Assembly: GCA_021773645.1 (NCBI GenBank)
Contig: JAJFJU010000012.1
Span: 372,001-436,000 of the forward strand
Source of the DNA: Gammaproteobacteria bacterium
GTDB lineage: Bacteria > Pseudomonadota > Gammaproteobacteria > HK1
DNA length: 64,000 bases
Direction of reading: 5' to 3'
In this document: piece after piece, positions 16,701 through 50,728 of the stretch
How the letters are laid out: every line of letters begins with the position of its first letter
Position numbering within the stretch: position 1 is the first letter of the stretch
Notes under the pieces: generated by a model
Told to the model about the DNA's origin: nothing
What the model saw: the letters and a program-made list of their open reading frames with translations, nothing else
Database searches by the model: none
Translations under genes and position numbers: made by a program

Positions 16701-16744
16701 GGTTTCGGCAGTTCTTGACGAGTGCCCTCTACACCGTCTTCGTT

Positions 16745-16776
16745 CCCTGGATTACCCGTTTTCACGGGTAATGACG
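16745..16776 (+). repeat. Palindromic intergenic repeat, family P1 copy 1
   Basis: CCCTGGATTACCCG is followed by TTTTCA and CGGGTAATGAC, giving a stem of ATTACCCG against CGGGTAAT. The same unit recurs inverted at 50609-50640, with a diverged copy at 50729-50771. It belongs to the widespread type of CTGGAT..CGGG-stem repeats seen between proteobacterial genes. Confidence 0.7.
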
Positions 16777-23405: not shown

Positions 23406-23450
23406 AGGGGTCTCTGATCTAAGGACGCCTGAATAGATCAGAGACCCCTT
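23405..23450. repeat. 16-bp-stem hairpin with MITE-like ends; possible bidirectional terminator
   Basis: AAGGGGTCTCTGATCT (23405-23420) pairs perfectly with 23435-23450 across a 14-nt loop. The inner loop-side sequence GAATAGATCAGAGA matches the inner end of the MITE terminal repeat 8 bp downstream. It looks like an internally deleted relative of that element. It also sits between two convergent genes, where a strong hairpin may terminate both transcripts, although no long T-run follows. Confidence 0.65.
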
Positions 23451-23457
23451 AACTTAG

Positions 23458-23615
23458 GGAAGCTCTGATCTATTCGTGAACTCGCATCTTGCACCCAAAA
23501 TGCCCATCTTTATCGTTGCTGTTCTTCGCAATAGAACGACTTAGGTGCGAACAGCGCCTCAAAGCTGAACATTTTGAATCGTAACCTGCTTTACCCAGAA
23601 TAAATCAGAGATTCC
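23458..23615 (-). mobile_element. MITE-like element, copy 1 (158 bp)
   Basis: The ends are GGAAGCTCTGATCTATTC and the inverse of GGAATCTCTGATTTATTC, an 18-bp terminal inverted repeat with two mismatches. TTAG is directly duplicated at 23454-23457 and 23616-23619. The interior has no gene and aligns along its whole length, in reverse orientation, with copies at 33208-33366 and 48630-48789. Four-base duplications of the YTAR type are typical of the IS5 group, so this is probably a non-autonomous derivative of such an element. The right duplication includes the TAA stop of the chemoreceptor gene. Confidence 0.85.
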
Positions 23616-32225: not shown

Positions 32226-33170
32226 ATGGGCTCTAAAACCCAGGCACAAGCCATTTACCAGCGCCTTGTGGCCAATGTTGAACGGGTGATTCGCGGCCAA
32301 GATAGGGCCATTCGCTTGCTCATTGCCGCTTTTTCCGCGGGTGGTCATGTGTTGCTGGAAGATGTGCCGGGTACCGGCAAAACAACGCTGGCCAAGGCAT
32401 TGGCGCGTTCCGTTCACGCGGAGTTTCAGCGTATCCAATTTACCCCGGATTTGCTGCCCAGCGATATCCTCGGGGTGAGTATCTTTGACCAGGGCAGCCA
32501 GAAATTTTGCTTCCACCCCGGGCCGGTGTTTACTGAGGTGTTGCTGGCGGATGAGATTAACCGCGCTTCGCCACGCACCCAGTCCGCCTTGCTTGAGGCC
32601 ATGGGTGAGCGCCAGGTGAGCGTGGATGGCGCCCAGCACGGGCTCAAGCCCCTGTTTTTTGTTATCGCCACCCAGAATCCGCTGGAATTTCAGGGGACCT
32701 TTCCCTTGCCGGAATCGCAGATGGATCGTTTTGCCCTGCGCTTTAGTCTTGGCTATGTGAGCCCGGAAGAGGAGGTGGCGATCCTAGGTGATCAGGCCCA
32801 TGGTCATCCCCTGGAAAGCATCGGACCCTGTGTGAATGAGCAAGAAATGGCCCTGCTGCGGACGGAGCTGGAGGCCGTGCGTGTGAGTGATGAACTAAAG
32901 CGTTACGTGGTGGATCTTGTTGGCGCAACCCGGAGTGCAGAGGGGGTGCGTGTCGGGGCCAGTCCGCGGGCATCGCTTACGGTGGTGAAGGTGGCCCAGG
33001 CCCTGGCACTTTTTGATGGTCTTGATTTCGTCACCCCGGACCATATCCAGGAAATCGCCGGGCCCGCCATAGCTCATCGTATTCTGGTGGAGGATCAGGC
33101 CGGCTTTTCAGGTGTGGATGGCGAACGGGTGGTGGCGGAGATCTTGGAAACACTGCCGGTGCCTGCATGA
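32226..33170 (+). CDS. MoxR-family AAA+ ATPase
   Basis: The 314-residue ATPase has Walker A DVPGTGKTTLAKAL near residues 46-59, Walker B VLLADEINRASPRTQSALLEAM and the sensor region FVIATQNPLEFQGTFPLPESQMDRF, all typical of MoxR. MoxR proteins act as chaperone-like ATPases and are commonly encoded with a DUF58 protein and a transglutaminase membrane protein, exactly as here. The usual tight spacing to the DUF58 gene is broken by a 159-bp MITE insertion that fills most of the 198-bp gap. Molecular clients are unknown. Confidence 0.93.
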   Translation: MGSKTQAQAIYQRLVANVERVIRGQDRAIRLLIAAFSAGGHVLLEDVPGTGKTTLAKALARSVHAEFQRIQFTPDLLPSDILGVSIFDQGSQKFCFHPGPVFTEVLLADEINRASPRTQSALLEAMGERQVSVDGAQHGLKPLFFVIATQNPLEFQGTFPLPESQMDRFALRFSLGYVSPEEEVAILGDQAHGHPLESIGPCVNEQEMALLRTELEAVRVSDELKRYVVDLVGATRSAEGVRVGASPRASLTVVKVAQALALFDGLDFVTPDHIQEIAGPAIAHRILVEDQAGFSGVDGERVVAEILETLPVPA

Positions 33171-33207
33171 GCTAGTGAAGCAAGCGGTTGGAGTGGTCGT
33201 TATTTAT

Positions 33208-33366
33208 GGAATCTCTGATTTATTCTGAGCCAAGCAGATTGCGATTCAAAATGCACGGATTTGAGGCGCTGATCGCACGTAATAGCTGGCTATTGCGAAG
33301 ATCAGCAACGAAAACCCCGGGTATTTTGGGCGCAAGATGCGAGTTCACGAATAGATCAGAGATTCC
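33208..33366 (+). mobile_element. MITE-like element, copy 2 (159 bp)
   Basis: The ends GGAATCTCTGATTTATTC and GAATAGATCAGAGATTCC are inverted repeats with one mismatch. TTAT flanks both sides (33204-33207 and 33367-33370). The interior aligns along its length with copies at 23458 and 48630. The last two bases of the right TTAT form the first two bases of the ATG of the DUF58 gene (33369-33371). The element therefore replaces the native leader of that gene, including its ribosome site. Confidence 0.85.
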
Positions 33367-33368
33367 TT

Positions 33369-34700
33369 ATGTTTAGGCGCTGGTTACTCGCCCGTTTTTA
33401 CAGCCTCTACCGGCTGGATCGCTGGTTGCGACTCAGGCTCAGCCCCGCCGGGGTTCTGGTAGCCGGACTTTTCAGCATCGCGCTTATTTTTGGTCTCGAT
33501 ACGCGGCGCACCCTCGCCTATCAGCTCGCCAGCCTAGGGCTGGCACTGCTGCTGCCGGCCATCATCAGCACCTTCTTTCCTCGTCCTCGTTTATCTTTGC
33601 TGCGCAAATTACCGCGTCATGCCACTGTGGGTATACCGCTTGGTTATACGGTCAGGGTAAAAAATGAAAGTGGGCGGCAGCAGAACGGTTTGGGTTTGAT
33701 AGAAGCCTTGTATACCAAGCCGCCTTCGTATCATCATTTTCAAACTCAGCGGCTCAAAGATCGGAAGCAACGGGTTAACCCCTTCGATCGTCTGGTTGGG
33801 TTTCCCCGCTGGAGTGTCCTCATGCGCCGTGCTCGTGGTGGGACGGTTAAAGAGGCCGAAGTGCCGGAGATTCCGCCACAGGGTGCGGTAGAGGTAAAGA
33901 TGCGCTTGCTCCCGGAGCGCAGGGGACTGATTCGCCTACGAGAGCTGCATCTGGTGAGACCCGATCCGCTGGGCCTGATTCGGGCGATTTCTACCCATGA
34001 GAGGCCGGCTAATCTGCTGGTGCTACCGCGCTGCTATTCGGTGGAAGGCGTTGAACTTCCGGGAGCTCGGAGCCGTCCGCAGAACGGGCTACTGCCCGCG
34101 CCGCTACGGGGTGAATCCGGGGAATTCATGATGGTTAGGGATTACCGGCCCGGGGATCCTTTGCGGCGGATTCACTGGCGTAGCTGGGCGCGGACGGGGC
34201 GGCCGGTGGTGAAGGAATTTGAGGATCTGGGGGGCTGCCGCCATGCGTTATTTCTGGATGTTGGTGATAGCGCATCCGTCGAGCACTTTGAGGCGGCGGT
34301 TTCGGTAGCCGCCTCTTTTGTGGTCACCGGATTGCTGGAGCTGGTGTGTATCGGCACCACCGTTTATCGCATGCCGCGTGGCGCGGGGGGTGGTTTTCCG
34401 GCGTTGGTAATGGAGGCGCTGGCCTGCGTTGAGCCGCAAAGGGATGGCAAGGGACGCCGCGTCCCGGAGGCGTGTCTGGCCGAGGCGGGTGGCTGGATCT
34501 GTGTTTTTCCGGCATGGGACGAGCAGCGACAGCAACAGCTAAAACAAATCGCTGCGACGGGTGCCGGCGTATTGGCTTTGCCCATTGCTGACACGGCAGT
34601 GCCTGCATCAGAACTTTCAGGGCTGGGAATTCGGGTGGCACCACTGTCAGCTACGGATATAGGCCGGGCTTTGCGTGAGCTGGCGAGAGCGGCGCTGTGA
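33369..34700 (+). CDS. DUF58-domain membrane-anchored protein
   Basis: The 443-residue protein has two hydrophobic segments near residues 28-65. A conserved DUF58 core follows: LHLVRPDPLGL, GEFMMVRDYRPGDPLRRIHWRSWARTG and a C-terminal von Willebrand-like region. DUF58 proteins accompany MoxR ATPases and are thought to work with them in cell-envelope processes. The start ATG lies against the end of the MITE, leaving only the weak AGAGA of the element end as a ribosome site. Translation may be altered compared with relatives. The stop overlaps the next start (GTGA at 34697). Confidence 0.88.
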   Translation: MFRRWLLARFYSLYRLDRWLRLRLSPAGVLVAGLFSIALIFGLDTRRTLAYQLASLGLALLLPAIISTFFPRPRLSLLRKLPRHATVGIPLGYTVRVKNESGRQQNGLGLIEALYTKPPSYHHFQTQRLKDRKQRVNPFDRLVGFPRWSVLMRRARGGTVKEAEVPEIPPQGAVEVKMRLLPERRGLIRLRELHLVRPDPLGLIRAISTHERPANLLVLPRCYSVEGVELPGARSRPQNGLLPAPLRGESGEFMMVRDYRPGDPLRRIHWRSWARTGRPVVKEFEDLGGCRHALFLDVGDSASVEHFEAAVSVAASFVVTGLLELVCIGTTVYRMPRGAGGGFPALVMEALACVEPQRDGKGRRVPEACLAEAGGWICVFPAWDEQRQQQLKQIAATGAGVLALPIADTAVPASELSGLGIRVAPLSATDIGRALRELARAAL

Positions 34701-36709
34701 GGCTGCCACCATTGCTACTGGGCGTGACCACGTTGTTCTGGGGTTGGCAAAATGGGGCTTGGCTCACGGGCTTGTCGCTGGCCATTCTGATTGAGGGTGC
34801 ACGTTTGCTGCCGTGGCGCTGGGAACTCGACGATCAGGACTTCAATCGCATCGCCGATCTCAGTGCGGTGCTGTTGCTTGGGCTGATTTACTACCAATAC
34901 GATACCCATGCAGTACATGGGATATTTGGCACTCTGCGCTGGCTGCCACTGGTGTTGCTGCCCCTGTTGGCTGCCCAGATCTATAGCACTCGCGAGGGTA
35001 TTCGCTATAGCACCTTGTTCATCAGCATTCGCCGCGCCGAGGCCCGTGGACGGATTGTTGATGGCGGCGAGATCGATCTTCGTTATCCCTTTCTGGCCCT
35101 GTGTCTGCTTTCTGCCAGTGCGGGTACCGCCGACCGCAGTCGCTTCTATGCGGGTTTGTGTTTGCTGGTGGTATGGGCACTGTGGCGTTTTCGGTCACCG
35201 CGCTATTCGGTCATTATCTGGGGCGGGGTGCTGGCATTTTCACTGGCTTTGGGGATGGGTATTCAGACGGGTATTCTGAAGACCCGGACTGCGCTGGAGC
35301 CCATCGTGCTGGAATGGCTGCAGGAACGCCTGTGGCAGATGCGTGATCCCTACCGCACCCAAACAGTCATCGGTGAGATCGGTGACTTTAAAACCTCCGA
35401 CCGTATTTTGATGCGGGTGGATGCCCCTCGTGGCGCTCCGCCAGCCTTGCTGCGTGAGGCCAGTTACCGCACCTATAGCACCGGGGTCTGGCTGGCTGGT
35501 TCCACTGGGTTTAGCCCGCTGAGGTCTGATATTGAGGGCACAAGCTGGGTGCTGCAGGGAGGGGAGGGGCCTTTCAGCAGGGCAAATATTTCCCAGCGCT
35601 TGCGCCGTGGCAAGGGGTTGCTGGCGTTGCCCGGGGGTACTCATCGGCTGGAAAAATTGCCGGTGGAAGAACTTAAACAAAACAGCCTGGGGGCGGTCAC
35701 CGTTTCGTCTGGGCCAGATCTTGTGGAGTACACCGCCTACTATCGTCCTGGTGAAACAGTGGATCTCGAGGCCGATGAGACCGATCTGCAACTACCACGT
35801 CGGCAGCGTGCGCTGTTCATGGAACTGGCGGACGAACTGGGATTGCGTGGTCTGGATGCAGAGGTTGCCATTGCCCGGGTAGCGGCCTATTTCCAGCGGA
35901 ATTTTAGCTACACCCTGGTACAGCGCAGATCCCAGGGTTTACGACCACTTGCCTATTTCCTTCAGGAGTCGCGGCGCGGGCATTGTGAATACTTTGCTAC
36001 CGCCACTGTGCTGCTATTGCGTGCGGCGAGCATCCCGGCACGCTATGCCACCGGCTATTCGGTGCAGGAATACAGCACCCTGGAAGCACGTTTCATAGTA
36101 CGTCGTCGCCATGCTCATTCCTGGGCGCTGGTGCGGGTGAACGGACAGTGGCGGGATCTGGATACCACACCAGCAGTGTGGGCGCCGCTGGAAGCGGAGG
36201 CTGCCTCCGGCTGGGAGCCATTCTTCGACTTCTTTGCGTGGCTACGATACCGCTTTACCCGTTGGAGGGTGGGCGAGGGCGGGGTGGAAACGGGGTGGTT
36301 GCCCTGGTTGGCGTTGCCACTGTTGCTGCTTCTGATCTGGCGTTTGCGTAGTACCCGCCGGCAGACGCGTGCGCAAGCGGGACTACCCTCACAACGGCGG
36401 CCACAGCCCGTTGGTATGGATTCAGATTACTACAAAATCGAGACGTTCTTAGCGGCTGCAGGTGTGGCGCGCCCTTCCGGGGCGACGCCGCAAAACTGGC
36501 TGCGGCAGCTGGCGGAGAGTCCGCATCTGGATGGCATGGATGAAGTGCTGAAGGATATTCTGCCCATCCACTACCGCTGGCGTTTTGATCCCCAGGGGCT
36601 TGATGAGCGTGCGCGGGAAGAATTTGGTCGCCGAGTACAGGCGTGGTTGATGCGCTACGCCGCTGGCCTAGGGACGGGGCCAGCGGCCAGAAAGGAAAAA
36701 AGCGGGTAG
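34697..36709 (+). CDS. TgpA-like membrane transglutaminase (DUF3488 plus transglutaminase core)
   Basis: The 670-residue protein has several N-terminal membrane helices (about residues 1-195) and a periplasmic transglutaminase-like domain. A further span lies at about 535-552, and a C-terminal cytoplasmic tail completes it. The Cys-His-Asp triad is visible: C430 in RRGHCEYFATATVLLLRAA, His in RRRHAHSW (472-474) and Asp in DLDTTP (487-489). This is the TgpA type, an essential envelope protein in Pseudomonas aeruginosa. GTG start, 4-nt overlap with the DUF58 gene. Its stop TAG begins a palindromic repeat pair. Substrate unknown. Confidence 0.9.
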   Translation: MRLPPLLLGVTTLFWGWQNGAWLTGLSLAILIEGARLLPWRWELDDQDFNRIADLSAVLLLGLIYYQYDTHAVHGIFGTLRWLPLVLLPLLAAQIYSTREGIRYSTLFISIRRAEARGRIVDGGEIDLRYPFLALCLLSASAGTADRSRFYAGLCLLVVWALWRFRSPRYSVIIWGGVLAFSLALGMGIQTGILKTRTALEPIVLEWLQERLWQMRDPYRTQTVIGEIGDFKTSDRILMRVDAPRGAPPALLREASYRTYSTGVWLAGSTGFSPLRSDIEGTSWVLQGGEGPFSRANISQRLRRGKGLLALPGGTHRLEKLPVEELKQNSLGAVTVSSGPDLVEYTAYYRPGETVDLEADETDLQLPRRQRALFMELADELGLRGLDAEVAIARVAAYFQRNFSYTLVQRRSQGLRPLAYFLQESRRGHCEYFATATVLLLRAASIPARYATGYSVQEYSTLEARFIVRRRHAHSWALVRVNGQWRDLDTTPAVWAPLEAEAASGWEPFFDFFAWLRYRFTRWRVGEGGVETGWLPWLALPLLLLLIWRLRSTRRQTRAQAGLPSQRRPQPVGMDSDYYKIETFLAAAGVARPSGATPQNWLRQLAESPHLDGMDEVLKDILPIHYRWRFDPQGLDERAREEFGRRVQAWLMRYAAGLGTGPAARKEKSG

Positions 36710-48629: not shown

Positions 48630-48789
48630 GGAAGCTCTGATTTATTCTGGGTGAAGTAGATTGTGATTCAAAATGTTCAGCTTTGAGACGCTGTCCGTAC
48701 GTAATAGTCGCTCTATTGCGAAGAACAGCAACGATAAAGATGGATATTTTGGGCGCAAAAGACGAATCCACGAATAGATCAGGGCTTCC
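48630..48789 (+). mobile_element. MITE-like element, copy 3 (160 bp)
   Basis: The ends are GGAAGCTCTGATTTATTC and GAATAGATCAGGGCTTCC, and the interior aligns with copies 1 and 2 in the same orientation as copy 2. The left flank is TTAT and the right flank TCAG, so no target duplication survives. It lies between the stop of the diheme cytochrome gene (48804) and the terminator hairpin that should follow it. Confidence 0.82.
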
Positions 48790-48803
48790 TCAGGTGTACC
48801 AGA

Positions 48804-50608: not shown

Positions 50609-50640
50609 TCATTACCCATGAAGACGGGTAATCCAGGGAG
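50609..50640 (-). repeat. Palindromic intergenic repeat, family P1 copy 2 (inverted)
   Basis: The reverse complement reads CCCTGGATTACCCG, TCTTCA, TGGGTAATGA, nearly identical to the copy at 16745-16776. It follows the Usp stop by about 12 bp. Confidence 0.7.
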
Positions 50641-50728
50641 CAAAGGCGATGCAAACAGCTCTATGGGGGCTAACGCGGCTCACGGCCTTATCAAGTCGAG
50701 GGGCGTGCCTAATTGTCTTGTCTCCGTT

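Follow-up and report, generated by a model that had tools for sequence, protein, structure and literature searches.

Palindromic repeats such as ERIC, NEMIS/Correia and YPAL are among the closest described counterparts of the element reported here. As described in PMC2229807, they are about 100-200 bp long, lie mostly between genes, form stem-loops in RNA and in some cases contain open frames; ERIC measures 127 bp with a 7-bp terminal repeat, and the terminal repeat of NEMIS is 24 bp. Some repeats of this kind are described as exerting their effect by RNase cleavage or by changing the stability of the mRNA (PMC10969869, PMC2229807). YTAR is the target motif given for IS5 in PMC10359306. For T4 genes 25 and 38, PMC3014915 describes a structure between the Shine-Dalgarno (SD) sequence and the AUG that brings both to a working distance.

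A palindromic MITE lies between moxR and a DUF58 gene in the window, which is the whole 64,000-nucleotide stretch of DNA analysed (Table 1). It shares with ERIC, NEMIS/Correia and YPAL the size class, the many mainly intergenic copies and, by prediction, the long stem-loops. By the descriptions cited, it is set apart from ERIC and NEMIS by its length (157-161 bp among the 38 full copies of the home genome), its 18-bp termini and its target; with 159 bp, the copy studied here has neither the size nor the terminus of ERIC. The class name MITE suits an element that is short, present in at least 38 full copies and non-coding, its open frame being without a Pfam match. With IS5-family MITEs it has in common a terminus that also occurs on an element with an IS5-type transposase, and 4-bp YTAR duplications, whereas it is palindromic throughout and not only at the ends. 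The anatomy of the DUF58 start is compatible with a split ribosome site like that of T4 genes 25 and 38, since a structure is predicted between SD and AUG. In the account of T4 that structure covers about 16-17 nt and its effect was measured, whereas here it is 159 nt long, transposon-derived and predicted only.

Table 1. Features of the moxR–MITE–DUF58 gene row and other MITE copies in the window.
Feature	Position	Strand	Basis or remark
moxR, AAA_3 ATPase, 314 aa, upstream gene	32226..33170	+	ORF; Pfam AAA_3 4.6e-62
GGAG, possible original Shine-Dalgarno core	33190..33193	+	Sequence; anti-SD energy -6.7 in modelled empty site
Left target-site duplication TTAT	33204..33207	.	Read directly
56-codon frame	33206..33376	+	Part of ORF 33188-33376; codon log-odds -8.1; no Pfam match
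Palindromic MITE, 159 bp, full-length predicted hairpin	33208..33366	+	Copy matches, fold, alignment of 38 copies with its pair counts
Left terminal inverted repeat GGAATCTCTGATTTATTC	33208..33225	+	
Right terminal inverted repeat, contains AGAGA (33358-33362)	33349..33366	-	
Right target-site duplication TTAT	33367..33370	.	Final two bases are AT of DUF58 ATG (33369-33371)
DUF58 protein, 443 aa	33369..34700	+	ORF; Pfam DUF58 1.8e-7 (weak, yet above cutoff); relatives; dN/dS
Transglutaminase-like protein	34697..36709	+	ORF; Transglut_core 1.3e-17
MITE copy, 158 bp	23458..23615	-	Duplication CTAA/CTAA; abuts stop codon
MITE copy, 160 bp	48630..48789	+	Flanks TTAT/TCAG, unmatched

The gap between moxR and the DUF58 gene is 198 nt, and 35 nt remain when the element and one TTAT are subtracted. 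The candidate SD core GGAG is 12 nt away from the ATG that arose at the left edge of the element, and the DUF58 ATG has this same distance from it in the modelled empty site. Downstream, the start of the transglutaminase-like gene and the end of the DUF58 gene share 4 nt. All gene calls come from our own codon-usage script, the starts of which are crude. An earlier note on this DNA had described a MITE with a TTAT duplication, an AT of the DUF58 start codon supplied by the right TTAT, and a poor ribosome site in AGAGA. All of this is borne out, the anti-SD energy near AGAGA being -2.9 now versus -6.7 in the modelled empty site. The same note took the element for the whole 5' untranslated region, which does not agree with the locus: 5' of the MITE there remain about 35 nt of spacer that include the GGAG, moxR lies ahead of it in the same orientation, and no promoter-like site was found when 33100-33450 was searched with a simple consensus scan. 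A promoter or terminator at the insertion site was rejected on that simple scan, which found neither. Nothing in the analysis supports the label "essential-type" that the note gave to the operon.

The annotated DUF58 start is probably correct. Position 33369 holds the first ATG, GTG or TTG following the last in-frame stop, and the first 11 residues read from it, MFRRWLLARFY, are the same in the congeners OFTM50 and OFTM98, so that the downstream start considered in the earlier note is not indicated. The dN/dS values of the DUF58 gene against these two congeners (0.126 and 0.132; 0.194 between the congeners) show that it remains under purifying selection. That moxR and DUF58 normally lie close together, as the note had it, is confirmed by relatives without the element, with gaps of 15 nt in OFTM98 and, counted on the sequence, 36 nt in G008 and 32 nt in G012; G009, which has no ATG, was omitted from the comparison. 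The OFTM98 spacer is too diverged to display the exact empty junction. In OFTM50 (L053 2900-3000) the gap is 101 nt and holds a different repeat-like insert that partly matches two other places in that genome, which indicates that a long spacer is tolerated at this junction. None of the four measured relatives has a gap of 198 nt. As judged from these spacers, the moxR-DUF58 junction has taken two unrelated inserts.

The MITE at the DUF58 start is palindromic. The 18-bp terminal inverted repeats match at 17 of 18 positions, and the predicted fold of 33204-33371 is one hairpin of -82.3 kcal/mol (z -10.4), the stem of which encloses AGAGA and stops 2 nt 5' of the DUF58 ATG. Strong folds (-46.9 to -86.2) were predicted for all 38 copies of the home genome, a few of them branched. 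In the alignment of the 38 copies, 57 pairs form in 96.4% of cells and both sides have changed at 16 pairs; this pair count was matched by none of 500 shuffles and by no slide of the alignment. Over the stem as a whole, G-U exceeds A-C in each of six groups, with 240 versus 126 cells in 87 of 88 copies (L113 was omitted) and 8 versus 2 consensus pairs. L119, L122-L125, L146 and L149 stand outside the counts. Selection on the stem at the RNA level was considered and rejected since, despite this overall excess, the rare variants are about evenly divided between G-U and A-C (12/11, 18/16, 27/25 and 34/31). The even split suggests that inserted copies decay neutrally. We read the G-U excess as a probable inheritance from active lineages, and see no sign in these variants that the folding of single copies is kept by selection.

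The window contains three copies of the MITE. Its best non-self match has a value of 2.0e-54, a repeat beyond chance. In the home genome (G000), 41 matches were found among the best 40 of 47 candidates scored, and these comprise 38 full copies, one remnant matched in two pieces, and the self-match of the copy at the DUF58 start to its own opposite strand. The congener OFTM98 (G001) has nine matches, one of them partial, and the congener OFTM50 (G002) has at least 40 among the best 40 of 76 candidates scored. Across the class, at least 31 of 369 sampled genomes carry a match, 28 of these outside the genus; copy and genome counts here are lower bounds because at most the best two candidates per genome were scored. 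For 21 of the 28, at least 150 of 160 positions aligned, with 71-84% identity. The copies lie mainly between genes: 142 of 155 overlap no predicted gene, the other 13 are overlapped by 1-70 nt, and none lies within a gene. The remnant L039 was excluded from every count, and L190 was not located (26 of 27 in G226). Copy L016 had no match among plasmids and phages at the sensitivity used, comparison with Rfam gave only sub-threshold, chance-level matches, and none of the papers listed in a literature search with the terminus sequences dealt with bacterial repeats by title. The family may nevertheless have been described before.

Exact 4-bp duplications flank 18 of 76 genus copies (mean of shuffles 6.8, maximum 14) and 22 of 88 home-genus copies. 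The corresponding figure is 50 of 67 in other genera, where TTAA, TTAG, CTAA and CTAG dominate; these 67, from four genomes, are those read among 196 counted matches and mostly the better-scoring ones, so the sample favours young copies. Taken over all copies, 72 of 155 have exact duplications (mean of shuffles 17.1, maximum 31), and the left flank of 91 of 155 is a strict YTAR. TTAT at the DUF58 site departs from YTAR at its last base. By their flanks, the home-genus copies look older than those of other genera.

Three observations concern individual copies. A mini-palindrome of 42 bp (23407-23448, minus strand) lies beside the MITE copy at 23458-23615 and has similar ends, GGGGTCTCTGATC...GATCAGAGACCCC; it looks like an internally deleted MITE derivative. 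The copy at 48630-48789 and L035 have common flanks, TTTAT on the left and TCAGGTGTA on the right (window 48790-48798), as if both were part of a variant of greater length or of a segment that had been copied. L024 (G000:C19:65759-65919) lies in the middle of a different inverted repeat, gggaagtata / tatacttccc, and splits it.

The termini and the YTAR duplications fit an IS5-type element. The terminus GGAAGCTCTGATTTATTC, which occurs in home copies and is identical at 17 of 18 positions to the end of the MITE at the DUF58 start, also ends an element in G271 that codes for an IS5-type transposase (DUF772 and DDE_Tnp_1), with TTAG outside; only one end of that element is on the contig. When the MITE is aligned to three IS ends, the best matches begin at the terminus and span 18-28 bases; one weaker match is internal. 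Broken or partial IS5-type elements were found in G002, G209 and G271, and the broken relative in G002 has similar ends. Neither the home genome nor OFTM98 yielded a DUF772 transposase, and the single DDE_Tnp_1 gene of the home genome is without MITE-type termini. Therefore the family is probably immobile in the home genome today.

That the element came to lie at a start codon reflects chance, YTAR targeting having acted within a short gap, and not a designed switch. To calculate this, the empty gap was modelled for each copy and insertion was allowed wherever no gene is broken. Copies that lacked a neighbour, or into which a gene extends, were left out of these nulls, which left 35 of 38, 65 of 76, 73 of 88, 58 of 67 and 131 of 155 usable. 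Start-codon targeting, and with it the special placement proposed in the earlier note, was rejected: 5 of 35 usable home copies touch a start codon where 4.5 are expected, and over all genomes read the number is 8 of 131, against 7.6 expected under target weighting and 12.0 under a uniform null. A preference for stop codons was likewise dismissed. A stop codon is abutted by 31 of 131 copies, far above the 5.8 of the uniform null, because YTAR contains TAA and TAG; under target weighting 28.2 are expected, a test made slightly circular by weights derived from the same copies. As an observation apart, the TAG of one gene lies at the left edge of L009 (G000:C7:61678-61841) and the next ATG 3 nt past its right edge, and the target duplication may there have split an earlier stop-start overlap.

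We propose that an IS5-type MITE inserted at TTAT, a YTAR variant overlapping the DUF58 start codon. The four target bases would have been duplicated, and since this rebuilt both sides, the ATG would have survived the insertion and the old GGAG would have come to lie beyond the element. Once transcribed, the MITE would form one long hairpin that buries AGAGA and reduces ordinary initiation at the DUF58 ATG; co-transcription with moxR and lower initiation are steps that we infer. What initiation remains would most probably come from ribosomes that bind at GGAG or arrive close to it while the hairpin is looped out, or from coupling through the short overlapping frame. The looped-out route appears tentatively possible; it would leave 14+2 nt plus the stem between GGAG and the ATG, compared with 12 nt before insertion. 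Coupling seems a less promising route, and the remainder of our expectation goes to weak initiation directly at the ATG or to a cut in the hairpin. Overall, a MITE on TTAT at the DUF58 start, with the ATG rebuilt, a hairpin that lowers or reroutes initiation and a placement due to chance, is in our judgment the probable explanation. That DUF58 translation is lowered or rewired is plausible from the modelled energies. The predicted cost of opening the start region rises from 13.5 before insertion to 29.8 kcal/mol after it, and the latter value is the maximum of a background of 46 genes that includes this DUF58 gene (median 12.3).

That same value speaks against a silent insertion, which we regard as rather unlikely and in which the mRNA would be unchanged, the same ATG would be used from a site no poorer than the genome's average, and passing ribosomes or polymerase would melt the hairpin. 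In agreement with such melting, the opening cost of the DUF58 start falls to 9.0 if the left arm cannot pair. Native SD sites also look weak in the window, with a 4-nt SD core in 7 of 47 predicted genes and a median SD energy of -3.7 versus -3.2 for random sequence (the gene starts being crude), so the loss of GGAG may matter little. The dN/dS of the DUF58 gene is not above the value between the congeners, as a silent insertion would have it, but pairwise ratios blend the time before and after the insertion. The positions of the other copies depend on the null chosen. Under target weighting, copies within 10 nt of a start are undepleted (21 of 131, 21.5 expected), whereas under the uniform null they are somewhat depleted (27.6 expected, P 0.04). 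Within 20 nt, the 30 copies observed are fewer than the uniform null predicts (43.3, P 0.0003) and, less clearly, fewer than under target weighting (34.6, P 0.12).

The drop to 9.0 would also serve ribosomes that start at the left ATG, translate the 56-codon frame, melt the hairpin, stop at the TAG (33374-33376) and restart on the DUF58 ATG. The anatomy allows this, since the ATG of the frame is made of the left duplication and the first G of the element, the frame is open from 33206 to 33376, its stop overlaps the DUF58 ATG in ATGTTTAG, and GGAG precedes the left ATG at the spacing of the modelled empty site. Coupling of this frame to DUF58 translation is possible from its layout, yet we consider it unlikely as the account of this locus, and it is weakened by the left ATG being itself occluded (TTAT+G, predicted 25.4 kcal/mol). 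A peptide from the frame was rejected as a feature of the family: the equivalent frame is open in just 7 of 76 copies, and together with the negative codon score this makes it look accidental, probably a chance product and not a gene. Cleavage of the hairpin by RNase III or RNase E in a moxR-DUF58 mRNA, the element then setting the relative stability of the two halves, would suit a full-length hairpin of this strength and is a reaction reported for Correia/NEMIS and ERIC in the sources cited above. However, the stem seems to decay neutrally in place, as shown by the rare variants with 27 G-U and 25 A-C, and we hold cleavage to be improbable as well.

A more general idea is that the MITE ends are portable ribosome sites, with the hairpin looping the rest out, which we consider very unlikely. 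The consensus end read outward is ATCAGAGNTTCC, followed by the 4-bp target, and gives AGAGG when N is G. If the idea were true, AGAGG would stand at SD distance from a start codon abutting the element, selection would keep AGAGG at the ends that feed genes, and an insertion at a start codon would do little harm, the element supplying a ribosome site itself. In the genus, GAGG occurs in 7 of 13 start-adjacent ends and in 28 of the 139 remaining ones (post hoc, Fisher p 0.012). This hint found no replication in 12 further OFTM50 copies, which have no start-adjacent end within 12 nt, and the other genera offer no contrast for the test since GAGG is present in 126 of 134 ends read there. The MITE at the DUF58 start carries AGAGA and would be a poor example of such a site.

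The DUF58 site by itself is of modest interest. It illustrates how a transposon can insert at a start or stop codon and leave both genes whole, thanks to the duplication of four target bases, and it belongs to a palindromic repeat family that is present in many genera of the class and has no above-threshold match in Rfam. Young, mostly exact copies in G073 and G226, set against one genus with older, decayed copies, would allow tests of whether such a hairpin affects translation in gene rows. The window also contains an unrelated pair of inverted repeats of 54 nt, partly palindromic, at 16721-16774 and 50609-50662.
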